Positions 2,434 through 35,242 of a stretch of 43,470 nucleotides of DNA are shown here, one piece after another; position 1 is the stretch's first letter, and every line of letters starts with the position of its first letter. This stretch comes from Paralimibaculum aggregatum (GTDB lineage: Bacteria; Pseudomonadota; Alphaproteobacteria; Rhodobacterales; Rhodobacteraceae): NCBI RefSeq assembly GCF_030270585.1, contig NZ_BSYI01000047.1:1-43470 (forward strand). The letters are read 5' to 3'. Below the pieces are notes generated by a model. That model worked only from the letters and a program-made list of their open reading frames with translations. It did no database searches and was not told the origin of the DNA. The translations under genes and the position numbers were made by a program.

Positions 2434-2436
2434 CCC

Positions 2437-7509: not shown

Positions 7510-7510
7510 C

Positions 7511-8296: not shown

Positions 8297-8324
8297 GCGT
8301 TCCTCCATTTGCGATCGGCCTAAC

Positions 8325-8338
8325 ATACTGACTGGTAT
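8325..8338. promoter_or_regulatory. Probable TetR operator, minus-strand operon
   Basis: ATACTGACTGGTAT, an imperfect palindrome with ATAC/GTAT ends, lies 29 bp before the first codon of the hydratase gene. Its reverse complement differs at one base from the site at 8560-8573. The position near a plausible minus-strand -10-like CAGTAT within the site suggests repression of the minus operon by the TetR protein encoded at 14326. Confidence 0.7.
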
Positions 8339-8544
8339 CTCTGGAAGCCCAAAAATCCGCTCCCGGACGCAGCCTGCGCCAAGCCGCCGCAATCGGCAGA
8401 ACGGACCAGGCGGTGCCATTTCCGCCAGGTACACTGGGAGAACTGTCCCTATTATTCTCGATTTACCGGCATTTGAGCCATATCGTTGCGCGCATGTGCA
8501 GCCCCTGCCGGAACCGGAGTCTGTGCCATCGCTGCGAGAATCGG

Positions 8545-8573
8545 TTGACGAGTTTCAACATACCAATCAGTAT
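8545..8573 (+). promoter_or_regulatory. Promoter and probable TetR operator, transporter operon
   Basis: TTGACG (8545-8550) is a good -35 element. ATACCAATCAGTAT (8560-8573) is the second copy of the palindromic operator and occupies the spacer and the presumed -10 (CAGTAT, 17 nt after the -35). A repressor bound here would block RNA polymerase. The binding-protein gene begins 42 nt downstream. The gap 8297-8614 holds nothing else recognised. Confidence 0.65.
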
Positions 8574-8614
8574 GCAGCCAACGATAACACGGATGACCAA
8601 CAGCGGAGGAAACC

Positions 8615-14997: not shown

Positions 14998-16334
14998 TGT
15001 TCATTGAGCCGAAAACCCCGCATTCCGACACGGTGTGGGACGAATGCGAGCTCTGGTCGCGCGACCGGATCGAGGCGTTCCAGCACGAGGCCTTGGCGCG
15101 CCAGCTCGCCCGCGTGGGCCGCACCAGCGCGCATTACGCGAAGGTGTTCGACGAGGCGGGGTTCGACCCGCAGGGCTTCAGCGGCGCGGCCGACCTCAAG
15201 CGCCTGCCGATGACGCGCAAGACCGACTATGTGGCGGGGCTCGCCGCCGATCCGCCCTTCGGCACCTTCCGTGCCGTCGAGGCGCGCGACATGGCGCGGG
15301 TGCATTTCTCCTCGGGCACCACCTCGCGGCCCGCTCCGGTGCTCTGGTCGCATGGCGACCTCGGCCGCTGGGCGGATCTCTACGCGCGGTATCTCTATGC
15401 GCAGGGGCTGCGGCGCGGCGACGTCTTCCACTGCATGTTCGGCTATTCCTGGTTCGTGGGCGGCCTCGGCGCCAGCCTCGCCGCGCACCACCTCGGCGCG
15501 ATGGTGATCCCCGGTGGCTCGGTCGACACCAAGCGCCAGGTCGAGACGATCGTCGAGTACCGCCCGCGCGCGGTGATCGGCACCCCATCCTTCATGGCGC
15601 ATATTGCCGAGGCCGCGGCCGGTATGGGGGTCGACCTGCCGGCAGGCTCGGTCGAGCTCGTGATGGTGGGCGGCGAGCCCGGCGCGAGCGTTCCCGGCAC
15701 GCGCCAGCGCATCGAGCGGCTCTGGGGGGCGAAGATGTTCGACTGCTACGGCGCGCTCGAGGCCCAGCCCATCGCCTGGGACTCCGCGCTCCAGATCGGC
15801 CCGCACATCGCCGAGGATTTCCTCTTCGTCGAGATCGTCGATCCAGAGACCGGCGATGACGTGGCCGACGGCGAGCGCGGGGTGCTGGTCCTCACCCATC
15901 TCGACAAGGAGGCCTGCCCGCTGGTGCGCTGGTGGACCGGCGACGTGGTGATCCGGGACAGCAGCCCCGCGCCGGACGGGCGCACCCATGCGCGGCTGCC
16001 GGGGGGCGTGCTCGGCCGCGCCGACGATATGCTGATCGTGCGCGGGGTGAACCTCTTCCCCTCGGCGGTCGAGGACATCGTGCGCGCCCATCCGGGCACC
16101 TCCAACGAATACGTGCTCGTGGTGCGCGACGCGATGCGCGACCCCAACACCGGCATGCTCAGGGGCATCGGTCTCCGCGTGGAGGCGGCCGGCGGCGCCG
16201 ACCCCGAAGGGCTGCGCGAGGCACTCGGCAGCGTGCTCCGCGACGCGCTGAGCGTGCGCTTCGAGATCGAGGTGCTCCCGCCGGACACCCTGCCCCGCAC
16301 GGTGCACAAGGCCAAGCGCGTGGTGCAGGAATGA
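14997..16334 (+). CDS. PaaK-like acyl-CoA ligase (AMP-forming)
   Basis: 445 aa, the length of phenylacetate-CoA ligase-type enzymes. ATP/AMP motif HFSSGTTSRP (about 103-112), the YGALEAQP segment that corresponds to the adenylation core motif YGxTE, TGD in the WWTGDVV segment, and GRADDMLIVRGVNLFPS at the hinge of the C-terminal domain. PaaK relatives activate aromatic and alicyclic acids to CoA thioesters. This is probably the entry step after import. The ATG at 14997 overlaps the tetR stop by one base. Confidence 0.9.
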   Translation: MFIEPKTPHSDTVWDECELWSRDRIEAFQHEALARQLARVGRTSAHYAKVFDEAGFDPQGFSGAADLKRLPMTRKTDYVAGLAADPPFGTFRAVEARDMARVHFSSGTTSRPAPVLWSHGDLGRWADLYARYLYAQGLRRGDVFHCMFGYSWFVGGLGASLAAHHLGAMVIPGGSVDTKRQVETIVEYRPRAVIGTPSFMAHIAEAAAGMGVDLPAGSVELVMVGGEPGASVPGTRQRIERLWGAKMFDCYGALEAQPIAWDSALQIGPHIAEDFLFVEIVDPETGDDVADGERGVLVLTHLDKEACPLVRWWTGDVVIRDSSPAPDGRTHARLPGGVLGRADDMLIVRGVNLFPSAVEDIVRAHPGTSNEYVLVVRDAMRDPNTGMLRGIGLRVEAAGGADPEGLREALGSVLRDALSVRFEIEVLPPDTLPRTVHKAKRVVQE

Positions 16335-17437
16335 GCCCCGCCGGTCCTCCCATGGCGCTGAAGGGGCGCCGCGTGGTGGAGCTCTCGCAGTTCATCGCAG
16401 GCCCCACCGCCGCGCAGCTCCTGGCCGATTTCGGCGCCGAGGTGATAAAGGTCGAGCCCCCCGGGGGCGACGCCACCCGCCGCCTGCCCGGCACGGAGCA
16501 CGGCAGCGCCTATTACCGCTGCTTCAACACCTCCAAGAGCAACCTGACGCTCGAGATCGGCACGGAGGCCGGCGCGAAGGCGCTCGACGAGCTTCTGGCC
16601 TCGGCCGATGCGGTGGTCTGCAACATCGCGCCGGGAACCCTCGCCCGGCTCGGCCGCGACCCCGAGAGACTGATGCGCGACCACCCGCATCTCGTGGTCA
16701 CGCTGATCTCGGGCTTCGGGCAGGACGACGCTCGCGCCTGCATGGACACCATCGCGCAGTGCGAGAGCGGCTTCGCCTGGATGAACGGCGGGCTCGACGG
16801 CGTGCCGCGGGTTTCGACCTCCTGGCCGGTCGACTACTTCTCGGGGCTCTATGCGGCCTACGCGACCGCGATGGCGCTGGCCGACCCCAGGCGCACGGAG
16901 GGCGTCGTGATCGACGTGCCGATGCTCGAGGTCGCCTCCGCCGTGCTGCTCGGGCCGGCCGCGATCCTCGCGGGCGAAGGCGCGGCGCTCGACGGGCCCA
17001 CCGGCAACCGCGACCGTGCCTCCGCCCCCTCCAGCATCTATGCCTGCGCGGACGGGTACGCCTATGTCTATGCGGGGCTCGACAACTACTGGGCGCGGCT
17101 CGCCCCGGTGGTGGGGGGGCGTGCGGCACCCTTTGGCGACAGGCTGGCGGCCCCGGCCGAGTTCGATGCCGCGGTCGAGGCCTGGACCCGCAGCCGCACG
17201 CGCGACGAGGTGCTGGCAGAGATGGCGCGGCTCGGCATCCCCGCGGGCGCAGTGCGCGACCCGGTGGAGGCTATCGCTGCGCTGCGGGCCACCCGTCCGG
17301 ATGCCGTGACCTCCGAGGGGCCGGAAGGCGCGCGGCTGCCCGTCTTCCCGGCGCGCTTCTCGGGCCAGCGGATCGACCGGCGCCCCGCGCCCCCGCTGCC
17401 CGCCGACAACGCAGACCCAGGAAAGGAAATCCGATGA
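16331..17437 (+). CDS. Family III CoA-transferase (CaiB/BaiF)
   Basis: 368 aa, starting with the typical LKGRRVVELSQFIAGPTAAQLLADFGAEVIKVEPP. The nucleophilic Asp, which forms a mixed anhydride with the substrate, is Asp139 in MDTIAQCESG, the equivalent of the GYDxxxQAxSG motif. The protein is slightly shorter than the usual 390-410 aa. It transfers CoA between carboxylates; donor and acceptor cannot be read. ATGA overlap with both neighbours. Together with the second CoA-transferase at 18247 and a ligase, the cluster has three ways to make CoA esters, so more than one carboxylate may be activated, or the pair may form a heterodimer. Confidence 0.9.
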   Translation: MSPAGPPMALKGRRVVELSQFIAGPTAAQLLADFGAEVIKVEPPGGDATRRLPGTEHGSAYYRCFNTSKSNLTLEIGTEAGAKALDELLASADAVVCNIAPGTLARLGRDPERLMRDHPHLVVTLISGFGQDDARACMDTIAQCESGFAWMNGGLDGVPRVSTSWPVDYFSGLYAAYATAMALADPRRTEGVVIDVPMLEVASAVLLGPAAILAGEGAALDGPTGNRDRASAPSSIYACADGYAYVYAGLDNYWARLAPVVGGRAAPFGDRLAAPAEFDAAVEAWTRSRTRDEVLAEMARLGIPAGAVRDPVEAIAALRATRPDAVTSEGPEGARLPVFPARFSGQRIDRRPAPPLPADNADPGKEIR

Positions 17438-18237
17438 CCGAGCCATCCACACCGCCAAAAGAGGTGCTGCGCCCGGGGCTGCTCGCGGGGACCACAGGGC
17501 TCGTCACCGGCGCGGGCTCCGGCATCGGGCGGGCGGTGTCGCTGCGGCTCGCAGCGCTGGGCATGGCCGTCCACGGCACCGGGCGGCGCGAGGAGGCGCT
17601 GGCCGGCACCGCCACGCTGGCCGAGGGGCTGGCGGGCAGCTTTGCCTACACCCCTTGCAACGTACGCGAGACCGATGCGGTGACGGCGCTTGTGGAGCAG
17701 GTGGCAGCAAACGGGCTCGACCTCCTGGTCAACAACGCGGGCGGGCAGTTCTTCGCCCCCGCCGCCGAGATCAGCCAGAAGGGCTGGAACACGGTCGTCG
17801 ATCTCAACCTCAACGCCATCTTCGCCGTCACCCGGGCCGCCTATCCGCACCTGAAGGCGCGCCGCGGCGCGGTGGTCTCGATGTCGCTCTCGGGGGTGGA
17901 CCGCGGCGGCATGGGCTTCGCGCATTCCATCGCAGCCCGCGCCGGTGTGCTCGGGATGACCCGCTCGCTGGCGCTCGAATGGGCGAGGGACGGCATCCGC
18001 CTCAACTGCATCGGGCCGGGCACGGTCGTCACCGAAGGGCTCGCGGGCGAGGCCGCGCGCGAGATCCTCGACCGTCTGGTCGCCGCGACCCCCATGGGCG
18101 AGCCGACCCCGGTGGAGGAGGTGGCGGAGCTCGTCGCCTATCTCGCGAGCCCTGCCGGGCGGCTGATGACCGGGCAGCTCATCCAGATCGACGGCGCCGC
18201 CCATCTCGGCCCCGGCCTCCACCTGATCGCGAGCTGA
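17434..18237 (+). CDS. SDR, 2,4-dienoyl-CoA reductase-like, altered active site
   Basis: 267 aa Rossmann-fold SDR. Cofactor motif TGAGSGIG (25-32), NNAG (100-103), and MTRSLALEWARDGIRLNCIGPG near the C-terminus, resembling bacterial and peroxisomal 2,4-dienoyl-CoA reductases and trans-2-enoyl-CoA reductases. The classical YxxxK is missing: the segment reads HSIAARAG, with Ser165 and Arg169 at the Tyr and Lys positions. DECR-type enzymes also lack this Tyr but normally keep the Lys. The protein may reduce a double bond by a variant mechanism or be inactive as an oxidoreductase. ATGA overlap with the CoA-transferase upstream. Confidence 0.85.
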   Translation: MTEPSTPPKEVLRPGLLAGTTGLVTGAGSGIGRAVSLRLAALGMAVHGTGRREEALAGTATLAEGLAGSFAYTPCNVRETDAVTALVEQVAANGLDLLVNNAGGQFFAPAAEISQKGWNTVVDLNLNAIFAVTRAAYPHLKARRGAVVSMSLSGVDRGGMGFAHSIAARAGVLGMTRSLALEWARDGIRLNCIGPGTVVTEGLAGEAAREILDRLVAATPMGEPTPVEEVAELVAYLASPAGRLMTGQLIQIDGAAHLGPGLHLIAS

Positions 18238-18246
18238 GGGGACTGC

Positions 18247-19404
18247 ATGACCGCGCTCAAAGATGTCCGCATCCTCGATCTTACCCGTGTGCTCGCTGGC
18301 CCCTGGTGCACCCAGACGCTCGCCGATCTCGGCGCCGATGTCTGGAAGGTCGAACCGCCCGGCCAGGGCGACGACACCCGCGGCTGGCGCCCGCCCGAGA
18401 TCGGCGGCGAGTCGACCTATTTCCACTGCGCCAACCACTCCAAGCGCTCGGTGCATATCGACCTCAAGACCGACGAGGGCCGCGCAGCCGCGCTCAGCCT
18501 GGTCGACCGGGCCGACGTCCTGGTGGAGAACTTCCGAATGGGCGCGCTCGAGCGCTTCGGACTCGGCTGGGAGGCGGTGCATGCGCGCAACCCGCGACTG
18601 ATCTACTGCTCGATCTCGGGCTACGGGCGCACCGGGCCGCGAGCGAGCGAGCCGGGTTACGACTTCTCGATCCAGGCCGAGAGCGGGCTGATGTCGATCA
18701 CCGGGGAGCCGGACGGGCCGCCCTTGAAGTATGGCGTCGCGATCACCGATCTGGTGGCCGGGATGTCGGCGGTGCAGGCGATCCTCGCGGCGCTGATCGC
18801 CCGCGGGCGTACCGGCGAGGGGCAGCATATCGACATTGCCTTGCTCGACTGCGCCGTGGCCGCGACGGCGAACATTGCCTCAGGCTATCTGGCGACAGGT
18901 CGGTCCTCGCGCCGCTATGGCAATGCGCACCCGACCGTCGTGCCCTACCAGCTCTTCGACAGCGCGGACGGGGCCTTCGTCCTGGCGGTTGGCAACGACA
19001 CGCAGTTCGCGACGCTCTGCCGCAAGGTCATCGCCCGGCCCGAACTCGCGGAGGACGAGCGCTACAGCACCAACCGCGCCCGCGTCGCCAATCGCGAGAC
19101 ATTGATCCCCGCGCTGCAGGCAGTCTTCCGGGCCGAGCCCACGGCGGTCTGGATCGACCGGCTGCGGGCCGCGGGCGTGCCGTCCGGCAAGATCCGGAGC
19201 GTGGGCGAGGCGCTCGAATCGCCTGAGATCGCAGCCCGCGGGCTGGTCCACGAGGTGCCCGACGCCTTGCACGGGACGCTGAGGCTGGTGGGCTCGCCGC
19301 TCAAGCTGTCCGCCACCCCGCCGGCGGCACCCAAGGCCCCGCCCCGCGCGGGCGAGCACACGGCGGATATCCTGGACGGCGTGACCGCTCGCCATTCGGG
19401 CTGA
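18247..19404 (+). CDS. Family III CoA-transferase (CaiB/BaiF), second copy
   Basis: 385 aa, closer to the canonical family than the first copy: LKDVRILDLTRVLAGPW at the N-terminus, VENFRMGALERFGLG, and SGYGRTGPRASEPGYDFSIQAESG with nucleophilic Asp139. GAGGGGACTGC precedes the ATG; the 9-nt gap to the SDR is the largest in this arm. It is the last gene of the plus-strand catabolic operon. It may act with the 16331 protein as a heteromer, or on a different acid; the two sequences are clearly paralogous but divergent. Confidence 0.92.
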   Translation: MTALKDVRILDLTRVLAGPWCTQTLADLGADVWKVEPPGQGDDTRGWRPPEIGGESTYFHCANHSKRSVHIDLKTDEGRAAALSLVDRADVLVENFRMGALERFGLGWEAVHARNPRLIYCSISGYGRTGPRASEPGYDFSIQAESGLMSITGEPDGPPLKYGVAITDLVAGMSAVQAILAALIARGRTGEGQHIDIALLDCAVAATANIASGYLATGRSSRRYGNAHPTVVPYQLFDSADGAFVLAVGNDTQFATLCRKVIARPELAEDERYSTNRARVANRETLIPALQAVFRAEPTAVWIDRLRAAGVPSGKIRSVGEALESPEIAARGLVHEVPDALHGTLRLVGSPLKLSATPPAAPKAPPRAGEHTADILDGVTARHSG

Positions 19405-19808
19405 GGCCGTGCGAGAGTGACGCGAAGCGCCATTCGGCAACCCGGAGCCGGGATGCGGGGGACATGGCAGGCCCGCAAGACCCGGCTCCGTTCCCGCGCT
19501 CTCTGCTGCGGGATGCCGGGATCGGGCCGCGTTCCTCGCAACAGGAGTCCCTGGGGCCGATCGCATCGCGACCATTGATGTGCCGGTTCCGGTTGCAATT
19601 GGTGGCAAGGCGAGACCGCACAATCTGTCAGCGACCGTTGCGCGGCTTTCGCCGATCGTGCCGGGCCGCATGAGCGATCGAAGCTCTCGGCTGAAGATCC
19701 TCGTACCGGCAGAACTCGACGCTTTCGCCGTTTCGAGAGGGCGCTGGCATCCAGACGAGAGCCATAGCAATCGCGGGACAGTCAGCCCGCGGCGCTGGAG
19801 CGGCGAAA
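19405..19808. other. Junction stretch without a recognised gene
   Basis: About 400 nt between the end of the catabolic operon and the IS3-type transposase. No frame on either strand looks like a known protein. No OrfA of an IS3 element could be found here although one would be expected upstream of OrfB. Nothing further seen. Confidence 0.5.
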
Positions 19809-20684
19809 ATGCACCCGTTGTCGCGCCAACATGACGATACCCCTCGTGGAGCGGGAGGACGGCAATTGATCCGGACGCTCCGCGAGGGCCTTCTCGCCGA
19901 CGGCGTCGCGATGCCCCCGACCAAGCTCTGCGCCCGGTTCGGTGTGTCGCGGTGTGCGGTCTGCTGCAAGCCGGCCAGGGCGCCCCCGAAGGTCGCCCCG
20001 CGCTTTGCCGAGCCGATCGGGAAGCGCATAGAGGATGACCCCTCCTTCGGCTACCGGACCGTTGCGCACCGTCTCGGGTTCAACAGGAACACGGTCCGAC
20101 GGAACTTCCGGCTCAGGGGCTGGCAGGTCTGGAAGCGGCCGGTGGGCGCGCGGCCGCGGATCGCGGCCATGCCCTCTGTGGCCGCGGCCCCGAACGAACG
20201 CCGGTCGACGGCCCCCTGCCGGGTCTGGACAGGCAAGGACCGCTGGGCCAGGCTTGCGCTTGTCGTGGATCGCCACACCCGGGAGGGCCTCGGCTGGCAT
20301 CTCTCGCATTCAGGCAAGGCGACGACGGCAGCCCCGGCGCTCGAGCACGCCCTTATCGCGAGGTTCGGCACGCTCGGCCGGGTCGGGACGCCGTTCCTGC
20401 TCCGCGCCGACAATGGGTTGGTGTGCACATCCCGGCACGACACCCGGCTCGTGCGACGCTGCGGTCTGAAACAGGCGTTCATCACACCCCACTGCCCGCA
20501 GCAGAACGGCATGATGGAACGCCTGATCCGGTCGCTGGAAGAGCAATGCGTGCATCAGCAGCGCTTCGAAAGCCTGACGCACGCAACCCGCGCGATCGGC
20601 GACTGGATACAGTTCTGCAACACGAGGAGACCACACCGGGCTCTCGGCATCCGGACACCCGCCGAGGTCGGATTGGCGGCCTGA
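19809..20684 (+). CDS. IS3-family transposase OrfB with lost catalytic Asp
   Basis: 291 aa. Residues about 60-110 are the HTH-like region before the integrase core (FGYRTVAHRLGFNRNTVRR), then an rve/DDE domain to the end (RRPHRALGIRTPAEV). Of the DDE triad, Asp201 (LLRADNGL) and Glu237 (NGMMERLI) are present. The first position reads STAPCRVW, with Ala135 where relatives of this IS type, as I recall them, have STDLCRVW. OrfA and clear terminal inverted repeats were not found. Most likely an inactive remnant marking the left side of the mobile region. The reading frame itself is open; the start is uncertain. Confidence 0.8.
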   Translation: MHPLSRQHDDTPRGAGGRQLIRTLREGLLADGVAMPPTKLCARFGVSRCAVCCKPARAPPKVAPRFAEPIGKRIEDDPSFGYRTVAHRLGFNRNTVRRNFRLRGWQVWKRPVGARPRIAAMPSVAAAPNERRSTAPCRVWTGKDRWARLALVVDRHTREGLGWHLSHSGKATTAAPALEHALIARFGTLGRVGTPFLLRADNGLVCTSRHDTRLVRRCGLKQAFITPHCPQQNGMMERLIRSLEEQCVHQQRFESLTHATRAIGDWIQFCNTRRPHRALGIRTPAEVGLAA

Positions 20685-22807: not shown

Positions 22808-23716
22808 TCAGGCCGCCGCAAACTGCGACCGGCTCTCGCGGCACGACTGAAGGCCGTGCAGGAAATCTGCGGCGCGCTGCGCATGAGCGGCGGCGGTGAA
22901 GATTGCGCGCTTGTCGTTCTTCAGCACTTGCAGCCAGGAGCCGATATAGGCGGCGTGGTCCTCGCGATCCTCGAGCGTGATGCCGAGATCGGCGCAGAGG
23001 AAGGCCGCCCCAAGCTCCGCAACCAGTTCCTCTCGGGCATAGCCGGCATCGCCGAAGCTCTTGCGGCCAAGGTCGCGGTTCAAACGGGTTTCGTGCCGTG
23101 TCCAGTGCGTGCACTCATGCGCGAGGGTCGCATAGTAGCTTTCAGCGTTCCGGAAGGTCTCGAAGTCCGGCATCCGGATCTGATCAAGCGAAGGGATATA
23201 GCAGGCTGAATTTCCGCCCTGGAGGATCTTCGCACCCGTCGCCTCGAAGAAGGCATCCGCTGCGCGGATCCGCTCGTCCGGGTTCTTGGCACGCTCGGCC
23301 AGGGTGGTGAAATGCGCCGGGAGTCCTTCGATCTGCTCGACGTTGAAGACATGGTAGCCCTTCAGGAACGGAATGGCCCGCTCCTCCTCTTCGCCCGTCT
23401 GCTCGTCCAGTTCTGTCTTGACCAGGGTGTTGCAGTAGACCACGGGCGCGCTCTTCTCGCCCTTGCGGACATGCCCGCCAAGCTCCTTGGCCTGTTTGAA
23501 AGTCATCCAGATCGGGGCGGCAAAGCCGCGCTCCATCGCCGTCGCCCAGAGGGTCACGACATTGATCCCGCTATAGGGATGTCCGTTGAACCGCAGCGGG
23601 CGGGAAACCGGCCCGGCGGCATGTGCCGCATTCCAAGGCTGGGTCCAGGGTTTTACACCCATTTCCAAATGCGCGATGATTTGACCGGTGATCCGGGTGT
23701 AAATGTCTGGTTTCAT
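22808..23716 (-). CDS. ArdC-like antirestriction protein (ssDNA-binding / metallopeptidase fold)
   Basis: 302 aa. The N-terminal ArdC-type ssDNA-binding domain (DIYTRITGQIIAHLEMGVKPWTQPW, about 4-130) is followed by a zincin-like domain with HECTH (His200, Glu201, His204) and a downstream Glu in REELVAELGAAF. ArdC proteins enter recipient cells during conjugation or protect single-stranded incoming DNA and counter type I restriction. The start at 23716 is preferred to an ATG 33 nt upstream because GGAAGGAAAACGCC lies before it. The location next to the relaxase and upstream of a type I RM operon fits a leading-region role. Confidence 0.88.
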   Translation of the reverse strand: MKPDIYTRITGQIIAHLEMGVKPWTQPWNAAHAAGPVSRPLRFNGHPYSGINVVTLWATAMERGFAAPIWMTFKQAKELGGHVRKGEKSAPVVYCNTLVKTELDEQTGEEEERAIPFLKGYHVFNVEQIEGLPAHFTTLAERAKNPDERIRAADAFFEATGAKILQGGNSACYIPSLDQIRMPDFETFRNAESYYATLAHECTHWTRHETRLNRDLGRKSFGDAGYAREELVAELGAAFLCADLGITLEDREDHAAYIGSWLQVLKNDKRAIFTAAAHAQRAADFLHGLQSCRESRSQFAAA

Positions 23717-24160
23717 GGCGTTTTCCTTCCATTTTCGAGTTGCGTTCATGCAACCCGACTAGGCCCGCGCCAATGAGCGGGGGGAGAGCGTCAAGTCCGC
23801 AGCGGGCGGAGGGGGATCACCCGCTCTGCACGACCGAAAGGGAGGAAGAGCGGGGATACCGCCCGCGGCGCCCGGAGCGCGCAGCGCGTAGGGTTTAGTC
23901 TTGACACGCGATGGGGCCGCAGGCCCCTCTTGCGCGAGGGATCGAAGCCCGAAGGGCCGAGACAGCAATCAGCGGGCTCGGTTTACGAGAGCCCGGTCCG
24001 GCAACGCCGGACGCGCCAATGTGAGTGCGATTTTGAAAACCCATTTGTTTTCGACTCTAGGAGGACAAATCTGTATCTTGGTCAAGCACATAGGGAAAGG
24101 CCGGACGCTCCAACGGAACCCGGACAAATAAACCCACAAGAAAATAAAGAGAAACGAAGA
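23717..24160. other. Structured intergenic region with three GC hairpins
   Basis: About 440 nt between divergent genes. It contains a consensus-like TTGACA (23901-23906) and GGGGCC-GCA-GGCCCC (23913-23927). It also contains GCCC-GAA-GGGC near 23947 and the perfect 7-bp stem GTCCGGC-AAC-GCCGGAC (23996-24012). After 24020 the sequence turns AT-rich and leads into the helicase gene. Candidates are oriT/leading-strand initiation, a structured leader RNA or promoters for the two divergent genes. No open frame here looks real. Confidence 0.45.
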
Positions 24161-26641
24161 ATGCCGATAAATTTCGATGACCTTCTAGATGATGACTATT
24201 CAATTGTCATTGATCCTCGCGATATTTTCTTGACCCTGGACCGTGACAAGGCATTCGCTTTTCCCCGAGATATTCAAACCGAGGTCATGAAGGACTGGTT
24301 TTCGCAGAGAGACCAAGCCGACACGGTTATTAAGTTGAATGTCGGCAGCGGAAAAACTCTGGTCGGTCTATTGCTGTTACAAAGCTCGCTGAATGAAGAA
24401 ATGGCTCCTGCTGTCTATATCGCACCAGACAAGCAACTAGTCGATCAAGTGATTGCGGAAGCCGATGCACTCGGTGTTGAGGTCACAGACGATCCGCATG
24501 ATACGGACTTCCAGTCGGGCGACAGAATTCTGGTCACAACCATCCACAGGCTGTTCAACGGGAAGTCTGTATTCGGCGTTGGCGCAGAAGGCGTGAAGAT
24601 CAAGTTGGGGGCAGTCGTAATCGACGACGCCCATGCCTGCATTGCAACAGTCACCGAACAGTTCAGGATCGAGCTTCCCAATACGCATGCCGCCTATCAG
24701 GAAATCTTGAAGACTGTTGAACCTGACCTGAAACGGCAAAGCCATGCCCGGTTCCTCGATGTCAATTCGGGTGATCCACGCGCTATGATGGAAGTGCCGT
24801 ATTGGGCGTGGGTCAAGGCTCAGGAAGAGATCATGCAGGCCTTGCACGGTCATAAGAATGAGGACGAGCTGAAATTCTCCTATCCGCTGCTTCGGGATAT
24901 TCTGCCGCTTTGCCGCTGTGTGATCGGCGGCCAGAAGATGGAAATCGAGCCGGATTGTCCGCCAACCGACCTTGTGCGATCCTTCTCCCGTGCTAAGCGC
25001 AGAATCTATATGACGGCAACGCTTGCCGACGACAGCGTGCTCGTTACCCATTTCGGTGCCGACCCCGAAAAGCTCTCCGATCCGATTGTCCCCACGTCCT
25101 CGCAGTCCATGGGCGAGCGCATGATCCTCATGCCGCAGGAACTTAACCCCGAAATCACGTTGAAGGAGATCAAGGCGCTGCTTGTCGATCTGGCGGAAGA
25201 GCAAAACGTTGTCGTTATCGTGCCCTCGAAGAACGCTGCCAAGGACTGGGAGGATGTCGCCGATCAGACGCTCATGGCTTCGAGCGTAGTTAATGGGATT
25301 GAGAAGCTGCGCGATGGGCATGTCGGACTGACCGTCCTCGTGAACAGGTATGACGGCATCGACCTACCGCACGATGCGTGCCGCGTTCTGGTGATCTACA
25401 ATCTGCCCGAGGTGGCATCGTTTTCTGACCTGACGGATATGGCGGTCTTAAGCGATTCCCAATCTGGCTTGCGGCGTCAGATGCAGCGCGTCGAACAAGG
25501 CATGGGGCGCGGCGTGCGCTCCAACGACGATTATTGCGTGGTGCTGCTTGCCGGATCGAAACTCACGCGCCGCGTGAAATCGCCTGACGGCCTCAAGCTG
25601 CTTACCCCTGCCACACAGGCACAGCTCGACCTTTCGAAGAAGATCGCCAAGAAGATCGATGGTGTCGATATAGAAGGGATTGCAGGTGTCATCTACCAGT
25701 GCCTCAAACGCGATCCCTCCTGGGTCAAGATCAGCAAGAAAACACTCCTGAAAGCGCAGGCAAAGACGGGTCTGGTTCTCGACAAAGCCAGCGTCGCGGT
25801 GCGGCTTGCCTTCGACACAGCCCGCTCGGGAGATTACAAGGCCGCCGCCGATCTGCTCAGCACAGCTGCGAACGCCGCGCAGGACGACGATGAAAAGGCA
25901 TGGCTCATGTCGAAACTGGCGGCTATGCAACATCACCTGAACCCGGCCACGTCGCAAAAAACCTTACTGTCAGCGCACCGGCTGAACCCGAACGTCTTAC
26001 GCCCGATGGAAGGCATCGCCTATCAGAAGCTCGCGGCGCAGAAAGGTGCACAGGCGGCGGAAGTGCAATCGTATCATCAGGAGCGCTTTCTCGAAGCTGC
26101 CGACCGGATACTGGAAGTCAACCAGCTTAGCGACGACCTGCGCTTTCAAAGCGTGACGCCGGATAAGTTCGAAGCGGCCATAGATGCTGTTGCCCGGTTC
26201 ATCGGATTGCATTCCCAGCGTCCCGAGAAACAGTTCAATGATGAAGGGCCGGACAATCTGTGGGCGCTCCCCGATGGTTCGTTCCTGATCATAGAGTGCA
26301 AGAATAACGCTACATCCGAGAAAGGCATTTCCAAAACCGATCTGGGCCAACTCGACCAGGCTATGTCATGGTTCTTCGGGAAGTACACGAAGGCTGCCAG
26401 CGGCACGCCCGTCATCATCCATCCCCTCCGGACACTTGGCGACGGTGCATCCGAGGTCGAGGGCATGCGGATCATGACTGAAAACGAGCTAAAGAAGCTG
26501 CGCAAAGCGCTCGCCGATTTTGCGAAATCACTTGGCGATCCGGACATCCTCAACAGCCAGAAGCAGATAAACGAACTTCTCGCCACTCATGGATTCAACG
26601 GCGTGGAGTTTCTGAAACAGTATACTACAATCGTAAAGTAA
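24161..26641 (+). CDS. SF2 helicase (XPD/DinG-like) fused to PD-(D/E)xK nuclease
   Basis: 826 aa. The helicase core has Walker A GSGKT (62-66), DDAH box (155-158), motif III-like TATLAD (285-290), motif V-like VNRYDGIDLPHD (about 394-405), and motif VI QGMGRGVRS (446-454). The large insertion between the DDAH box and TAT resembles XPD/DinG-type helicases, but no Fe-S cysteine set is evident. The middle (about 540-650) is helical, TPR-like. The C-terminal end carries a nuclease signature: Pro697-Asp698, then ECK at 712-714 and GQLDQAMSWF. Base composition is less GC-rich than the catabolic region. Flanked by an antirestriction gene and a type I RM operon, it is probably a single-protein anti-phage or anti-plasmid defence enzyme. 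No partner gene is adjacent on its strand. The ATG at 24161 is the natural domain start. Confidence 0.85.
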   Translation: MPINFDDLLDDDYSIVIDPRDIFLTLDRDKAFAFPRDIQTEVMKDWFSQRDQADTVIKLNVGSGKTLVGLLLLQSSLNEEMAPAVYIAPDKQLVDQVIAEADALGVEVTDDPHDTDFQSGDRILVTTIHRLFNGKSVFGVGAEGVKIKLGAVVIDDAHACIATVTEQFRIELPNTHAAYQEILKTVEPDLKRQSHARFLDVNSGDPRAMMEVPYWAWVKAQEEIMQALHGHKNEDELKFSYPLLRDILPLCRCVIGGQKMEIEPDCPPTDLVRSFSRAKRRIYMTATLADDSVLVTHFGADPEKLSDPIVPTSSQSMGERMILMPQELNPEITLKEIKALLVDLAEEQNVVVIVPSKNAAKDWEDVADQTLMASSVVNGIEKLRDGHVGLTVLVNRYDGIDLPHDACRVLVIYNLPEVASFSDLTDMAVLSDSQSGLRRQMQRVEQGMGRGVRSNDDYCVVLLAGSKLTRRVKSPDGLKLLTPATQAQLDLSKKIAKKIDGVDIEGIAGVIYQCLKRDPSWVKISKKTLLKAQAKTGLVLDKASVAVRLAFDTARSGDYKAAADLLSTAANAAQDDDEKAWLMSKLAAMQHHLNPATSQKTLLSAHRLNPNVLRPMEGIAYQKLAAQKGAQAAEVQSYHQERFLEAADRILEVNQLSDDLRFQSVTPDKFEAAIDAVARFIGLHSQRPEKQFNDEGPDNLWALPDGSFLIIECKNNATSEKGISKTDLGQLDQAMSWFFGKYTKAASGTPVIIHPLRTLGDGASEVEGMRIMTENELKKLRKALADFAKSLGDPDILNSQKQINELLATHGFNGVEFLKQYTTIVK

Positions 26642-27000
26642 GCTTGAGCGTCATATAAAATTGCGAAAATCGTAAACACTATAGGACATGTCCTTGTTTT
26701 GATGAATGGTGTCTGAAAACGCCTTAGAGTAGACAGGTGTAAATGTTAACTGCTTGTGCAATGTGTTGTTGTTCCAATCCATTTTGGTTAGGCCAAGAAT
26801 TCCCTAGCAAGTCTCATGCCGCTCGCCCGCACCCGAAAACGACGCACCAGAACAGGCGATGGCGTGGGCTTCAGAGCCCCTTCTTTATAAACATTGTAAT
26901 TCGAGTTCTTGACGTCAATACCAGCTTGCGGTGGCGCTGACTCGCTCAGGGGAATCCCAACGACGCCGATCTGGCTTTATCGCGCTTTAGTGCAAGTGAC
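26642..27000. other. Convergent intergenic gap
   Basis: 359 nt between the ends of the helicase and hsdR genes, clearly more AT-rich than its surroundings. TATCGCG (26978-26984) and CGCGATA (27006-27012) form an inverted repeat over the hsdR stop and may help termination. A TTGACGTCAA palindrome lies near 26910. No gene or RNA recognised. Confidence 0.4.
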
Positions 27001-29331
27001 TTAATCGCGATAGAGATCCCTCTGCATTGAATTAAAGGCCAGCTTTACAGCAGAAAGCCCGCCGAGCCTCACTTTCCCCTCTCCGACGCTCCCATAACGC
27101 GCGGTCAGGAATGCCCCCAGCTTCTTCGCGGCAAGCTCGCTCTCGCCCCGCTGCTCATATGCCTTGAGGATCGAGAGAAGAAGCTCTCTCGTTTCTTCGT
27201 CAGCGCCCACCACCCCTGTCGAGCGCACGTTATTTGCGCGCTCGTGCCGGGTCTTCGGTGCGTTGGTAAATAGGATATAGCTTAGGACATCGAACAAATC
27301 GCTGTCCGGTGCATCAACAAGTTTGCGTATGTCATTCAACCGGTCCTGATCGTAACCACGATCGGAAAGTTGCTGGAGGAAGCGCTCGCGGTTATCGGGA
27401 TCGCTCCAAACTGCGCGCAACTGATCTTCATCGGCCACGATGCCTGACAGATCACCGAAGAGTCGCTTCAAGAACTCTTGTGCTGAAATCGGCTTGCCCT
27501 CAGGGCTCCAATAGGTAGTGGAGGCGATATACTTGATCTTACGAACGCTACCGTCCGATAGCTTCACAACGATTTTCTCGCGCTGCGGCTCTTCTTCGCC
27601 GCCTCCTTCCGGATCTTCGGGATCACCTTCGGGCCCGAGGTCGGCCTCGCCTAGAGGTGTTCTTGGATCTCTCGGTTCTTCGGGTTCGAGAGGTTCGCCA
27701 TCCCACTCCGGATCGTTGAAGTTTTCATGCGCCTTCACGAAATCCCAGATCGTGAAGAAGTCTTTGCCTTCATAGGTCCGCGTTCCGCGCCCGATGATCT
27801 GCTTGAATTCGATCATGGATCGGATCGGGCGCATCAAGACGATATGTCGGATGTTTCGAGCATCCACGCCTGTTGACAGCTTCTGCGAAGTCGTCAAGAC
27901 GGTCGGGATCGTCTTGTCGTTGTCCTGGAAGTCGCGAAGATGTTGTTCGCCGATTGCACCATCGTCAGCGGTCACGCGATGACAATAGTTCGGATTGGTG
28001 CTGTCCTTCACCTGATTGATCAGGTCGCGGACAAGCGCCGCATGATCCTGGGTGGCGCAAAAGACCAACGTCTTCTGCCGTTGATCGATCTGGCTCATAA
28101 ATTCCCGAACACGGCTGAGCTCGCGTTCTTCTATGATGATCCGCGTGTTGAAATCGCCTTCACCGAAGGAATCGCCGTCTTCAACTTCGCCCGCGACGAG
28201 CTCGTCACTGCCATCATAGACGTACTCATCGATGGTGCTGGCCATCTGGCGCACCTTGAACGGCGTCAGGAAACCGTCTTCGATCCCGTCGCGCAGGGCG
28301 TAGGTGTAGACGGGCTCGCCGAAATAGGCGTAGGTGTCGGCGTTATGCTTGCGCTTGGGCGTGGCAGTCAGCCCAAGCTGAGCCGCTGGTTCGAAATACT
28401 CCAGCAAACGCCGCCACTCGCTTTCGTCCTTTGCCCCGCCACGGTGGCATTCATCGATCACAACGAAGTCGAAGAAGTCAGGCGGATACTGCGTGTAAAC
28501 AGGCTCGCCTTCGCCCGTCATGAAGGTCTGGAAGATCGTGAAGAACAGGCTCGCGTTCTTCGGCGGTTTTCCACGGTTCTTGCGGATGGTGTCAGGGTCA
28601 ATGCGCGTCACCGCGTCTTTCGGAAAGGCGGAAAAGGCGTTATAGGCCTGATCGGCGAGGATGTTGCGGTCAGCGAGGAACAGGATGCGCGGGCGACGAA
28701 CAGGTTCGCCCGAAAGATTCCACTTCGCTTGAAACAGCTTCCACGCAATCTGGAAGGCGATGGAGGTCTTGCCCGTGCCCGTGGCGAGCGTCAAAAGAAT
28801 GCGGCGGTCGCCTTTGGCCAACGCTTCCAGTGCCGCGTTTACCGCCTTGTGTTGGTAGTAGCGCAGCTCCCACTTGCCGCCGTCCGTCTCGAAGTCCACG
28901 GCACCGAAGCGCTCCCGCCAGTCGTTGTGATCGGCAAAGGTGCGGTCCCAAAGTTCATCGGGCGTCGGGAAGGGCAAGTCCATGTCGCCCTCGGCCCCGT
29001 TGGCCATATCAATCTGATACCAGCTGAGCCCGTTAGAGGCGTAGGCATAGCGAGAACCTAATCGTGTGGCGTAGTCCTTGGCTTGACCGATACCGTTGCG
29101 GTGGCTGACGCCTGCGCGCTTGGCTTCCAGAACGGCGAGCTTCTGGCCTTTGTGGATCAGTACATAGTCGGCAGACAGCCCTTTGCCTCGCGTGCCGCCC
29201 GACTGGATGCGCCCAGGGCAGATGACCTCACGCCGAACCTTTGAGCCGTTCTGCCCCCAGCCCGCCGCCGCAAGGACGGGGTCTATGCGCTCGGCGCGGG
29301 TATCGGCTTCGGTTTCGTCGTGAATGCTCAT
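27001..29331 (-). CDS. hsdR: Type I restriction enzyme, endonuclease/translocase subunit HsdR
   Basis: 776 aa. The N-terminal PD-(D/E)xK nuclease has Asp55 (SADYVLI) and Glu69-x-Lys71 (VLEAKR). The SF2 motor has Walker A ATGTGKTS (183-190), DECH (293-296) and LTATP (321-325). An acidic linker at about 600-640 is followed by a C-terminal helical region that would dock on the methylase complex. The subunit cleaves unmodified DNA after ATP-driven translocation. The start at 29331 lies 17 nt after the hsdS stop. All catalytic residues seen are intact, so the enzyme should be active. It is the last gene of hsdM-hsdS-hsdR. Confidence 0.95.
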   Translation of the reverse strand: MSIHDETEADTRAERIDPVLAAAGWGQNGSKVRREVICPGRIQSGGTRGKGLSADYVLIHKGQKLAVLEAKRAGVSHRNGIGQAKDYATRLGSRYAYASNGLSWYQIDMANGAEGDMDLPFPTPDELWDRTFADHNDWRERFGAVDFETDGGKWELRYYQHKAVNAALEALAKGDRRILLTLATGTGKTSIAFQIAWKLFQAKWNLSGEPVRRPRILFLADRNILADQAYNAFSAFPKDAVTRIDPDTIRKNRGKPPKNASLFFTIFQTFMTGEGEPVYTQYPPDFFDFVVIDECHRGGAKDESEWRRLLEYFEPAAQLGLTATPKRKHNADTYAYFGEPVYTYALRDGIEDGFLTPFKVRQMASTIDEYVYDGSDELVAGEVEDGDSFGEGDFNTRIIIEERELSRVREFMSQIDQRQKTLVFCATQDHAALVRDLINQVKDSTNPNYCHRVTADDGAIGEQHLRDFQDNDKTIPTVLTTSQKLSTGVDARNIRHIVLMRPIRSMIEFKQIIGRGTRTYEGKDFFTIWDFVKAHENFNDPEWDGEPLEPEEPRDPRTPLGEADLGPEGDPEDPEGGGEEEPQREKIVVKLSDGSVRKIKYIASTTYWSPEGKPISAQEFLKRLFGDLSGIVADEDQLRAVWSDPDNRERFLQQLSDRGYDQDRLNDIRKLVDAPDSDLFDVLSYILFTNAPKTRHERANNVRSTGVVGADEETRELLLSILKAYEQRGESELAAKKLGAFLTARYGSVGEGKVRLGGLSAVKLAFNSMQRDLYRD

Positions 29332-29348: not shown

Positions 29349-30563
29349 TCATTTTAATTCGCCCGCGAAGGCTTTCTGCAAAAGGGATTGGCGGAGATCG
29401 TCGGTGTTCGAAACCTTCCGCGTATAGTCTTCAATCAGTGTATCAAAATCATTGGCCACGCTATCGAGGCGTTCCAATAGGACTTCTTGTTGGGCAACCG
29501 GAGGAACAAAGAAATTGAGTTTTCGAAGATCGCGTATATTGATCTGCATTAGAGCAGCGCCATAGGTTCCCGCCTTGATCTGGTTTTGCACAGGCTTCGA
29601 TAGAAACTGATAGTAACCAAGACGCTGATCCATTTTATCAGGATCGAAGCGAATGGGCACAATGCCTCTCGTTACGTTGACTCCGTCAAGTTCCTCAGAC
29701 GCCATAGCAACTACGCCCGTGCTGCCTCTTACACAAAGTAAGATTTCCGTGCCTTTCAGCTTCGTGCGAGCGTAGCCGTCCGCCTTCGCGGGATCGATAC
29801 GTTTGAGACCGTCCAGAGTAATGATCCTCCGCCCAAGGTCGGTGGGGCGAACAATCGGTAGCCCTCCTAAGACGTCGTCACCAGGTTGAACAATTCCGTA
29901 TGAAAGGCTGCAATCGCTCTCGACAATCTCTTGGAGTGTAGCGCTGATCCAATCGGCGTCATTTCGGGTGAAAAGCGCGCCAAGGAAATTCTCAAACAAT
30001 TCTCGGGCGTTTTGGAGGTTGGTTTCGGCGTGGGCGCGGGCGCGAGCCAGACCCTCGAAGGCCTCGTCCAGAACCGCAACAATCCGCTGTTGTTCTTCAA
30101 GTGGCGGGAGGGGGATTGTTTGAGCCCGCACCTGTTTGTCAGTGACCGCAGGATAACTTGCCCCTGATTGCAGAGACTCCATCGCATCCATGAAATCAGG
30201 GCGGAAGAGCGAGTGCATCAAGAAACGGGCGTCAAGGACAGGCTTTGGCCTTAGAACTATGTAGCCTGTGCTACAAACTTGGCCGTCTAAGTGCTCAGGA
30301 ACTTGCGCTATACGTTGGAGTGTCGGTCGAATGGTGGCAAAAAGGATGTCACCAGAACGGATTTTTCGTCTGGCTCGACTAGGGGCGTCAGCGCCAAGCA
30401 GTCTTTGCGTTTCGCCTATGGTGAAGGTCTCATTCGACACGCTGGAAACATCAACGTAATCGAATTCGTCCTCCGGTGCCTTACGCGGGTCTACTGTCTC
30501 CGTTTTCTCGCAGATGTCCCCTAGCGAGACTTCTTTCCAGCCCTGCTGGGCAAAATCCTTCAC
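29349..30563 (-). CDS. hsdS: Type I RM specificity subunit HsdS
   Basis: 404 aa with two target recognition domains (about 1-150 and 205-350). Each is followed by a conserved helical spacer beginning with a PPLEEQQRIVAVLDEAFEG-type (about 150-200) and a PPVAQQEVLLERLDSV-type (about 350-400) segment. The two half-sites of the recognition sequence are set by the two domains and cannot be predicted here. Its ATG overlaps the hsdM stop by 4 nt, as usual in these operons. Confidence 0.95.
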   Translation of the reverse strand: MKDFAQQGWKEVSLGDICEKTETVDPRKAPEDEFDYVDVSSVSNETFTIGETQRLLGADAPSRARRKIRSGDILFATIRPTLQRIAQVPEHLDGQVCSTGYIVLRPKPVLDARFLMHSLFRPDFMDAMESLQSGASYPAVTDKQVRAQTIPLPPLEEQQRIVAVLDEAFEGLARARAHAETNLQNARELFENFLGALFTRNDADWISATLQEIVESDCSLSYGIVQPGDDVLGGLPIVRPTDLGRRIITLDGLKRIDPAKADGYARTKLKGTEILLCVRGSTGVVAMASEELDGVNVTRGIVPIRFDPDKMDQRLGYYQFLSKPVQNQIKAGTYGAALMQINIRDLRKLNFFVPPVAQQEVLLERLDSVANDFDTLIEDYTRKVSNTDDLRQSLLQKAFAGELK

Positions 30564-32008
30564 AGCATCCCCCGAATGTCTTCGAGGATTTGCGCAGTTT
30601 CGGCATCCCGCGCCAGCATTTCGGCGATGATCTCTTCGGGGCTGCGCAGGGCCTCGGCCTCGGGCGCGTTGGGGTTCTTGACCGACAGATCGCAGGTGTC
30701 CTCGTCCAGATCAGCGCGGTTTACTATCCAGCTTTTTGGTCCGTTGGGTCGCGTACGTTGCAGCTCGACAAACTCTGCCAGATCGTCGTCGTTCAGCGGG
30801 TTGGTCTTACCAAGGCTGCGGCCAGGATCGAGCTGGTAATACCAGATGTCCCGCGTCGGTGCGCCTTTCTCGAAGAACAGCACCACGGTCTTGACGCCCG
30901 CGCCCTGGAAAGTGCCACCCGGGCAATCGAGGATGGTGTGCAGCTCTGCCGATTCCAGCAATTCCTTGCGCAGCGCGATGGAGGCGTTGTCGGTGTTGCT
31001 GAGGAAGGTGTTCTTGATCACCACGGCGGCGCGCCCGCCTGCCTTCAGCTTGCGGATGAAGTGTTGCAGGAACAGGTAGGCCGTCTCGCCCGTGCGGATC
31101 GGGAAGTTCTGCTGCACCTCGCGCCGCTCGCCACCGCCGAAGGGGGGATTGGCGAGGATGACGTCGTGGCGGTCCTTCTCCTGAATATCCATCACGTTTT
31201 CATTGAGCGTGTTAGAGTGGATCAGGTTCGGTGCTTCGATGCCGTGCAGGACCATGTTCATGATCCCGATGATGTAGGCGAGGCCCTTCTTCTCTTGTCC
31301 GTAGAAGGTCTTGGTTTGCAGCGCCTCGTATTCGGATGCGGAGAGCTTGTCGGTGCGCAGATAGTCGTAGGCCTCGCAAAGGAAGCCCGCCGACCCGACC
31401 GCGCCGTCATAGATTGTCTCGCCGATCTTGGGTGCTGTCACCTTGATCATGGCCCGAATGAGTGGGCGCGGCGTGTAGTACTCGCCCCCGTTGCGCCCTG
31501 CATTGCCCATGCGGCGGATGCGGGTTTCATAAAGCTGGGATAGCTCGTGCCGTTCGGCCTGGGTGTTGAAGGACAGGCCGTCCACGGCTTCGAGCACGTC
31601 GCGCAGGATGTAGCCGGAGCGGAATTTGTTGCGCAGTTCGGTGAAGACTTCGCCGATCTTGTACTGGATCGTCTGCGGGCTGGTGGCGGATTGTCGGAAG
31701 GATGCGAGGTACGGGAAAAGCTCCTGATCAACAAACTTGATCAGGTCGTCGCCAATACGGGCTGCGTTGTGGTCAAACTCGCCGTCTTTTTTGGGAGCGG
31801 CCCATTTGTCCCACTGGAAAGCGCCGTCGATGATGGGGGTGTAGTCTTCTCCATCGAGTTCAGCGCGGTCTGCGCGCTCGGTTTCAAGATCGTGCAGGTA
31901 TTTCAGGAACAGCACCCATGAGGTCTGTTCCACGTAATCCAATTCATTGGCGATGCCTTCTTCCGCGCGAAGATCCCGTTCAATCTTGTTAAATGCGTTC
32001 TCGTACAA
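30560..32008 (-). CDS. hsdM: Type I RM N6-adenine methyltransferase HsdM
   Basis: 482 aa. The N-terminal HsdM helical domain is followed by the methyltransferase core with SAM motif I DGAVGSAGFL (201-210; a variant of DPACGSGGFL) and motif IV NPPF (287-290) typical of N6-adenine methylation. Two HsdM and one HsdS form the modification enzyme; adding HsdR gives restriction. It is the first gene of the operon, and its upstream 700 nt are full of repeats and palindromes that may control establishment of modification before restriction. Confidence 0.95.
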   Translation of the reverse strand: MYENAFNKIERDLRAEEGIANELDYVEQTSWVLFLKYLHDLETERADRAELDGEDYTPIIDGAFQWDKWAAPKKDGEFDHNAARIGDDLIKFVDQELFPYLASFRQSATSPQTIQYKIGEVFTELRNKFRSGYILRDVLEAVDGLSFNTQAERHELSQLYETRIRRMGNAGRNGGEYYTPRPLIRAMIKVTAPKIGETIYDGAVGSAGFLCEAYDYLRTDKLSASEYEALQTKTFYGQEKKGLAYIIGIMNMVLHGIEAPNLIHSNTLNENVMDIQEKDRHDVILANPPFGGGERREVQQNFPIRTGETAYLFLQHFIRKLKAGGRAAVVIKNTFLSNTDNASIALRKELLESAELHTILDCPGGTFQGAGVKTVVLFFEKGAPTRDIWYYQLDPGRSLGKTNPLNDDDLAEFVELQRTRPNGPKSWIVNRADLDEDTCDLSVKNPNAPEAEALRSPEEIIAEMLARDAETAQILEDIRGML

Positions 32009-32708: not shown

Positions 32709-33722
32709 TCAATTTCTTGGATCGCTAGCGGTTTTCTTGCTATCTGCGTCAAGAAAATTTCCAGCATCGTGCATCTCTGAGTATTTCCATTTTCTTTCAA
32801 AGTAATCATATAAGTTGTCAACAAAGCTGTTTTCGGGATTTGAACTGCCCCACTCAATGTACGGCATTGCGCTAGAAAATCTATTTAAGTAGAATCCCGT
32901 GTAAACCGACTCGTGTCGCTCCCCTCTCTCCACTACGATCATCGGAACAGATGGCAAGTCCATATAGAATCTAAGCTCGAATGATCCAAGCGGCTTCTTA
33001 TTTTTATCTTTTGATTGATCTATTGCGTTCCTTAACTTCTGCATGTCTTTATAGAAGTTTATCATTGAAATCTGGCTTGTTTTTAGGGATCTCCTATAGT
33101 CTTCCACTGCGTTTTTAATGCTTTCCGGGTCATCCGGATTTCTGCAGGAGTCCTTACCGCGAAACTCTGAACATGGGTTGTCCTTATGCATAAGAAGCAC
33201 GCGAACATTTGTTCCCTTTAGTAAGGCAGTTCGAATATGTTCTTGTGAAACCTCGAGTTCGTTAAATTTTGTGTTCATCCACATTACAGACTTGTTGGAA
33301 GAATCACATATTATTTCCCCATCATCGATTTTCTCTATGACCTGCTGCAAGCCAAGGGAGAATCTTGACAAAATCAAGTTCTCGATCCTGTCAGAAAATT
33401 TTCTCTCAAAACCACTCAACTCACGCCGAAGGTAGTAGGCAATGTTTGTTTTCTCATACAATCGCTCTCCGACCGTTACGAATATCGCAATTATCACAGA
33501 GATAAAAAGAGCATCCGTTAACTTTGTCAAAATAGTTCCCGCGTAAGGACTCCACGAGGAAACATAGTACTGAAACGCGGTAAAAAGCAGAATATATACA
33601 AACAGTGATGTCGCTATTAGAACCAGCGTCATCCTGTATTTTACTATTTTTGCAAATAAATACTCGTAAAGAGACAACGATTCAGAATCTTTACTTTTGA
33701 TTTCTTCTTGAGTATTATGCAT
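32709..33722 (-). CDS. Two-TM membrane protein with large cytosolic domain, unknown
   Basis: 337 aa, not recognised. A short polar N-terminus is followed by two transmembrane helices (about 31-53 and 68-87) and a soluble domain of about 240 aa. Within this, GTNVRVLLMHKDNP (170-183) and the FELRFYMDLPSVPMIVVE segment (248-265) alternate strands and helices and faintly recall phospholipase D-like or DUF5919-type sensory/effector domains; no HKD motif is present. The gene is strikingly AT-rich with rare codons for this genome, a sign of recent transfer. Its position beside the RM operon suggests a membrane effector in defence, but this is inference. Confidence 0.75.
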   Translation of the reverse strand: MHNTQEEIKSKDSESLSLYEYLFAKIVKYRMTLVLIATSLFVYILLFTAFQYYVSSWSPYAGTILTKLTDALFISVIIAIFVTVGERLYEKTNIAYYLRRELSGFERKFSDRIENLILSRFSLGLQQVIEKIDDGEIICDSSNKSVMWMNTKFNELEVSQEHIRTALLKGTNVRVLLMHKDNPCSEFRGKDSCRNPDDPESIKNAVEDYRRSLKTSQISMINFYKDMQKLRNAIDQSKDKNKKPLGSFELRFYMDLPSVPMIVVERGERHESVYTGFYLNRFSSAMPYIEWGSSNPENSFVDNLYDYFERKWKYSEMHDAGNFLDADSKKTASDPRN

Positions 33723-34189: not shown

Positions 34190-35242
34190 CTATTCATCTC
34201 CATCTTTCATCATGCTTTCGGGAAACAGGAAGCGAGGCCTCTGCTCCAGGGTCCTGGCAAAGGCCGTCAGCGCGCTTCGTGTGACATATCGGCTTCCTGC
34301 CGACGGGGTCTGCATTTGCGTCCTTGCTGCCAGCTTGCCTTCATCGATTGCCGTGTGAAGCATCTGCTTGGTCTCCTCCACTTCCGGCGTCATCGTCCGA
34401 AAGTGGTCCGCGATCGACGGGGGCTCGAAGCCATGCCAGAGGAACGCGGCCTCGTAGACAAGCCATTCGTCGCGAGCGTCATGCTCCAACCAGTCTTCAA
34501 TGATGCGCAGTTCGCAAGGCTCGGCAGGTGTCAGCTTCTCGATCAGGGCGGCGCGATTGCGTAGCATTTCCAATGGATCGCTTGGTGCATCGGGGAAGAA
34601 TGCTTTGGGGCGCATTCCAGCAGCCTGGGCGAAGCTGCGCAGGTCCTCCATGGTCATGACGTATGATGAAAGGCCCACCTCCATCGTCACTTGTGTCGCC
34701 GTGAGCATGCCCGCCGCAATCGATCCGTGCAGCATGCGCTTCGTCTCTTCGACATCCGGCGTCATCAGGAACCAGTGCATGTTGACCGGCGGCGGAGCGC
34801 AACCGTGCCAAAGGAAGGCAACCTGGTAGAGGTAGAGACGATCGGCATCGCCGAATTGGGGGATCTCCGGATCGGAGTCCGTCGTAGCTGGTTGCGGCTG
34901 CTGTGCTAGCCCACCGAGCAACTCGTTTCTCTTCTCGGCAACCTCGTCGGTGAACGTCGGATCGTACTGCGGCTTAGAAAAGTACATTACAAACTTGGCC
35001 ACGTGATGATCTGCAACGTCGCCATTCCGGCGCATCCGCGAAAACATGAACTCATCAACCTGGCCGGATTCACTGCTGGCGCTCTCGTTTATCTCGGAGA
35101 TTATGCGATTTTTGTATAGATTGTTACCGGTTGCAGCTTTGTATTCGCGAATTATTGCGTCAATACGTTGAGCAATAAACCGTTGCAATTCAGGAAAGTA
35201 GTGCTTGCCACTTTCTGGTTTTGGATCGGCGGGGCCAGCCAT
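34190..35242 (-). CDS. Unknown protein with a duplicated 80-residue module
   Basis: 350 aa, family not recognised. The N-terminal part (about 12-90) is helical and charged. It is followed by two copies of one module at 137-217 and 261-341, both with the order AFLWHG, MTP(D/E)VEETK(R/Q)ML, a short strand, and a closing (R)P(K/R)(A/F)(F/L)FP(D/E). The linker between copies is helical. No membrane segments or catalytic motif are evident. It is on the same strand as the repeat protein at 35330, 87 nt downstream of it, so the pair may be co-expressed. Cargo of the mobile element; function unknown. Confidence 0.75.
   Translation of the reverse strand: MAGPADPKPESGKHYFPELQRFIAQRIDAIIREYKAATGNNLYKNRIISEINESASSESGQVDEFMFSRMRRNGDVADHHVAKFVMYFSKPQYDPTFTDEVAEKRNELLGGLAQQPQPATTDSDPEIPQFGDADRLYLYQVAFLWHGCAPPPVNMHWFLMTPDVEETKRMLHGSIAAGMLTATQVTMEVGLSSYVMTMEDLRSFAQAAGMRPKAFFPDAPSDPLEMLRNRAALIEKLTPAEPCELRIIEDWLEHDARDEWLVYEAAFLWHGFEPPSIADHFRTMTPEVEETKQMLHTAIDEGKLAARTQMQTPSAGSRYVTRSALTAFARTLEQRPRFLFPESMMKDGDE

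Follow-up and report, generated by a model that had tools for sequence, protein, structure and literature searches.

An Hna-family helicase-nuclease gene on a mobile or conjugative element of Paralimibaculum aggregatum

Hna (helicase-nuclease abortive infection) is a one-gene anti-phage system first described in Sinorhizobium meliloti, and putting back hna alone restored phage resistance in strains without pSymA (accessible text of PMC12445080). In the accessible text of PMC13381803, S. meliloti Hna is described as a 3'-5' ssDNA exonuclease: ATP keeps it restrained as a homodimer until a phage SSB sets it free, the published trigger being a gp2.5-like SSB, and its toxicity comes chiefly from the nuclease activity. 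The assays in that text detected no unwinding, and "helicase" is therefore a description of the fold. The same text reports that joint changes of T30, D31, and P34 abolished dimerisation, and it terms the homodimer loop highly conserved. Structures 10UJ and 9YKJ were deposited with this paper on the Hna anti-phage system. PDC-S28 is listed as a candidate system in PMC11811056, in whose accessible text the name Hna is absent.

We analysed a 43,470-nt stretch of DNA from Paralimibaculum aggregatum (hereafter the window), which is an entire contig and contains the following gene.

24161-26641, forward strand: hna homologue, 826 aa, with SF2 motor (HEL1/HEL2), helical linker, and C-terminal PD-(D/E)xK nuclease

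The open reading frame is intact, with an ATG start and zero internal stops, and the start is backed by two relatives (loci L019 and L020) in which nucleotide similarity to the window starts at 24160. Pfam matches to ResIII (E 1.4e-10, residues 35-186), DEAD (E 2.1e-10, residues 37-163), and Helicase_C_2 (E 1.3e-7, residues 382-470) mark an SF2 motor split in two, and the helices from 483 to 659 in the AlphaFold2 model (mean pLDDT 88.8) form the helical middle. Pfam gave no match for a nuclease domain in this protein; the nuclease was assigned from the alignment to Hna and from the fold. The original prediction had described an 826-aa protein in which an XPD-like SF2 motor is followed by a helical middle and, at the C-terminus, a PD...ECK nuclease, and this anatomy was right, as borne out by the reading frame, Pfam, the motifs, the model, and the Hna alignment.

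Profile, sequence, and fold all place the protein in the Hna family. The PADLOC PDC-S28 model PDLC04986 aligned to residues 3-823 at 1037 bits, and another PDC-S28 model, PDLC04987, scored 423 bits. S. meliloti Hna scored 1020 and 400 bits on the same two models, and its placement under PDLC04987 was rejected since, as for the window protein, its best score is on PDLC04986. A phmmer search against the PDB returned a single full-length match, represented by entries 10UJ, 9YHN, and 9YKJ (E 5.7e-131, residues 14-812), whose Hna chain is identical to an 845-aa frame of pSymA (L002:5956-8493). In Foldseek, the top PDB match of the model was the Hna monomer 9yhn (E 2.7e-64, TM 0.91/0.92, rmsd 2.6), followed by chains A and B of the Hna dimer 9ykj and then by DinG (TM 0.39/0.43). 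The PHROG family phrog_16128, of unknown function, also matched the protein (680 bits).

The dN/dS values of hna against L017, L018, and L019 were 0.05, 0.05, and 0.08, with differences mainly at third codon positions, showing purifying selection among close relatives as an average over the time since they split. Together with the full-length match, these values put the result far beyond chance. We conclude that the window protein is very probably an anti-phage protein of the Hna family, its mode of action being taken from S. meliloti Hna, and that it is an ordinary member of an already described family. The original prediction had not been able to match the architecture to a named defence system, and had counted a strong match of the whole protein to a system already described among the findings against it; such a match exists, to Hna, by PADLOC (PDC-S28, 1037 bits), phmmer, and Foldseek, and the reading as a new system was rejected. 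Its reading as single-gene defence is still the best one and points to the right kind of system, but that system already has a name, which removes one candidate from the list of unknown defence systems.

Residue conservation was assessed in loci from pattern scans, one of which gave only its best 80 matches, so the sample leans to the query and is not random. The fragment loci L010, L013, and L014 are not among the 124 loci; of these 124, two had no read-through in extraction (L009, probably taken from the wrong strand, and L026, with an early stop), leaving 122, and the window made 123 rows. Residue counts refer to 117 rows after L127-L130 (24-27% identity to the window) and L011 and L012 (25-26%) were dropped. 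The positions of interest in the window protein are as follows.

24248-24262, forward strand: loop (residues 30-34) aligned to the S. meliloti Hna homodimer interface (T30/D31/P34), with K30, A31, and F34 here; from alignments
24275-24277, forward strand: Q39, ATP coordination in Hna; 117/117 rows
24344-24358, forward strand: Walker A GSGKT, residues 62-66 (Lys65); G62, G64, and K65 in 123/123 rows
24623-24634, forward strand: Walker B DDAH, residues 155-158; D155 and D156 in 123/123 rows
25013-25021, forward strand: motif III TAT, residues 285-287; motif in sequence
25496-25519, forward strand: motif VI QGMGRGVR, residues 446-453; motif in sequence
26249-26254, forward strand: nuclease P697-D698 (in GPD at 696), equivalent to Hna P712-D713; from the alignment
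26294-26302, forward strand: nuclease E712-C713-K714, equivalent to Hna E727-C728-K729; from the alignment

The SF2 ATP site of Hna (R36, Q39, Walker A and B, motif VI) is present in the window protein, including the equivalent of R36, which 91 of the 117 rows hold. Equivalents of the nuclease residues D713, E727, and K729 were found in 117/117 rows and that of P712 in 114/117, the window protein included; with all 123 rows counted, the residue at K729 is K in 120 rows and H in the other three, which are all among the six dropped. The iron-sulfur cysteines of XPD lie between Walker A and Walker B, an interval with zero cysteines in the window protein. Four cysteines further along the chain, at 160, 251, 253, and 266, are kept in 109, 82, 98, and 60 of 117 rows, respectively; these cysteine counts come from the sequence only.

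By analogy with S. meliloti Hna, the window protein would act as an ATP-restrained 3'-5' ssDNA exonuclease that is set free by a phage trigger. The released nuclease would degrade DNA without control and stop phage production, and the infected cell would then die or stall, which is abortive infection. We infer this exonuclease action and abortive infection from the only member whose biochemistry is drawn on here, to which the window protein is 32% identical. The restraint step is not simply transferable, because the three interface residues are not kept.

T30, D31, and P34 occur together in only 2 of the 117 sampled rows, S. meliloti Hna and L126, and we do not take them as family-defining on these alignments. 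Among 69 clusters at 80% identity, all three residues were found in 2, two in 2, one in 7, and none in 58. The loop has the form PLRP in 8 of the 117 rows, [FYR][PL]xDxQ in 99, and neither in 10. Seven of the eight PLRP rows fall inside the S. meliloti clade, and the remaining one (L124) is a near-duplicate that was left out of the tree; another clade member, L125, has LLRP. The three contact residues are therefore not conserved in the wider sample, in contrast to the published description of the loop as highly conserved, and the published restraint model rests on loop residues absent from most sampled relatives. No description of this difference was found in the accessible main texts of the Hna literature.

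Since T30, D31, and P34 so seldom occur together, the restraint or the trigger-docking surface may differ outside the S. meliloti clade. The loop lies directly next to the Q motif, which binds ATP, so conservation of its common form may reflect ATP binding, and Hna could also dimerise through other residues. We regard it as a tentative, less than even prospect that most Hna members, including that of the window, lack the T30/D31/P34 contact and carry another conserved loop, and that both the restraint and the phage protein releasing it may differ from the gp2.5-like SSB case.

The hna gene is carried on a mobile or conjugative element. Upstream of it are genes for an rve-type transposase, a NikA-like protein, a relaxase, and ArdC, and downstream are genes for HsdR, HsdS, HsdM, and a VirD4/TraG-like protein. 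The features nearest to hna are listed below.

22808-23749, reverse strand: ArdC-like antirestriction protein, divergent from hna; beside hna in L017-L019 too
26654-26922, reverse strand: remnant of a short prokaryotic Argonaute gene, last 90 residues in two reading frames, directly downstream of hna
27001-29331, reverse strand: HsdR, type I restriction subunit, EcoAI family; PADLOC and profile matches
29349-30563, reverse strand: HsdS, type I specificity subunit; PADLOC
30560-32008, reverse strand: HsdM, type I methyltransferase; PADLOC

This setting agrees with the original prediction of a mobile element among restriction-modification genes, as type I HsdR/S/M genes lie beside hna. The differing composition it had noted was also seen, the GC content being 0.549 for hna versus 0.71 for window positions 1-20000 and 0.655 for the relaxase gene. 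ArdC binds ssDNA, and it might shield the transfer strand of the element from Hna. The organism's own genome contains one SSB-family match. There was no tRNA in the window and no Rfam match at gathering thresholds, and the repeats around hna were only short two- or three-copy pairs that were judged to be chance.

Three further reverse-strand genes lie beyond HsdM. The gene at 32709-33722, possibly cargo, encodes 337 aa with hydrophobic N-terminal stretches, has a GC content of 0.395, and has no Pfam, PADLOC, or NCBIfam match at the limits used. Two cargo genes have no family match over curated cut-off: that at 34190-35242 has one sub-cut-off Pfam match (E 0.0086), and that at 35330-35896 has repeats like HREDGPAEI.

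The closest relatives, among the matches listed, were Alpha proteobacterium Q-1 (L017, 96% identical to the window protein), Rhodobacteraceae bacterium HLUCCA12 (L018, 92%), and Chromatocurvus halotolerans (L019, Halieaceae, 91%), the last of which we take to belong to the Gammaproteobacteria. In a quick tree of 101 rows, which has long branches and open forks, the window grouped with L017-L020 (SH-aLRT 100), and S. meliloti Hna fell in a separate clade of eight rows (SH-aLRT 100). Both clades are represented within S. meliloti: pRmeGR4a of strain GR4 (L003) carries a window-type gene with 64% identity to the window, and pSymA of strain 1021 (L002) carries the tested type with 32%. S. meliloti 4H41 (L026) also has a window-type hna, in the extracted sequence of which a stop appears some 54 codons after the match begins.

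Matches to hna were found in 246 of 72,556 plasmid records, 174 of which contain 80% or more of the query at a single place, in one record (Salmonella, 501 kb) among 50,697 phage records, and in 34 viral-contig loci, four of them distant. PDLC04986 matched 6 of 292 genomes of the order, the window's own genome included; among these, one gene (G039) is split over two contigs, one match (G040) covers 128 residues, and two (G078 and G153) are distant. PDLC04987 matched 2 of 101 relatives, again including the window's own genome. Plasmid neighbours of hna (L003-L007) include DNA methylases, Vsr, Shedu, ABC-three-component, and toxin-antitoxin genes. L017 shares with the window genes for relaxase, ArdC, HsdR, and HsdM that are less similar than hna, a pattern suggesting that hna travelled as a module. 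The gene moves by exchange among mobile elements.

Such a distribution bears on whether the protein could instead be a housekeeping helicase-nuclease for DNA repair, of the DinG/XPD or ExoDinG type. In Foldseek, DinG and XPD come next after Hna (E 1.0e-12 and weaker), and residues 267-472 are matched by the profile of a CRISPR-associated DinG (E 6.5e-16). However, these folds rank behind all three Hna chains, with a query-normalised TM of 0.35-0.42 to the listed DinG/XPD chains (target-normalised at most 0.59) versus 0.91 to Hna. The spread is also patchy, with matches in 6/292 genomes of the order (own included, some with fragments or distant matches). The gene occurs in 246/72,556 plasmid records, and an alphaproteobacterium and Chromatocurvus have, among the matches listed, copies that are 91-96% identical. 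Both the distance in fold and the patchiness speak against this explanation, which we consider very improbable.

An equally improbable explanation is that the defence protein needs a neighbouring gene and is hence not a single-gene system, the partner being the divergent ArdC or a convergent Argonaute-SIR2 pair. ArdC adjoins hna in L017, L018, and L019, and an unbroken pair of Argonaute and SIR2-domain genes follows hna in L017 (10491-13672, reverse strand; matching the PADLOC pAgo_I and Aga_SIR2 models) and in L019 (4941-8116, reverse strand). In these two loci, hna, Argonaute, and SIR2 form one shared 5.7-kb block with 86% identity, and L090 has distant Argonaute and SIR2 matches at most 3.5 kb from its hna. 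However, ArdC was matched in only 4 of 127 loci, and Argonaute and SIR2 in 3 of 127. The window retains Argonaute only as a fragment, with no match at a meaningful E-value for the remainder of that gene or for its SIR2 partner, yet its hna is under purifying selection (averaged over the time since divergence from the relatives). S. meliloti Hna acts alone (accessible text of PMC12445080), and no gene was seen to adjoin hna in all five annotated plasmid neighbourhoods (L003-L007). A fixed partner gene was rejected on the small number of loci in which ArdC or the Argonaute-SIR2 pair adjoins hna. That the gene has no adjacent partner, as originally predicted, fits these data, as ArdC adjoins hna in only three close relatives and the downstream neighbour is a gene fragment.

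As an Hna-family protein, the window protein resembles Hachiman, Nhi, and Gabija in that a helicase is joined to a nuclease in anti-phage defence. In PADLOC, with E up to 0.1, none of these three systems was listed for it. Hachiman consists of two proteins in a complex (abstract of PMC12278908), and phage SSBs are said to stimulate both Hachiman and Nhi (accessible text of PMC13381803). With DinG and XPD it shares an XPD/DinG-type SF2 motor, but the fold match is weaker (query-normalised TM 0.35-0.42) and the stretch from Walker A to Walker B lacks cysteine. Hna is said to resemble ExoDinG, likewise a 3'-5' ssDNA exonuclease (accessible text of PMC13381803). The window protein differs from S. 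meliloti Hna (10UJ, 9YHN, and 9YKJ; PDC-S28) in its 32% identity, in having K30/A31/F34 at the place of T30/D31/P34, and in belonging to a separate clade of the quick tree. The two proteins are alike in length, domain order, and whole-chain fold, in R36 and Q39 of the ATP site, in the nuclease P-D...E-x-K residues, and in being encoded on mobile replicons.
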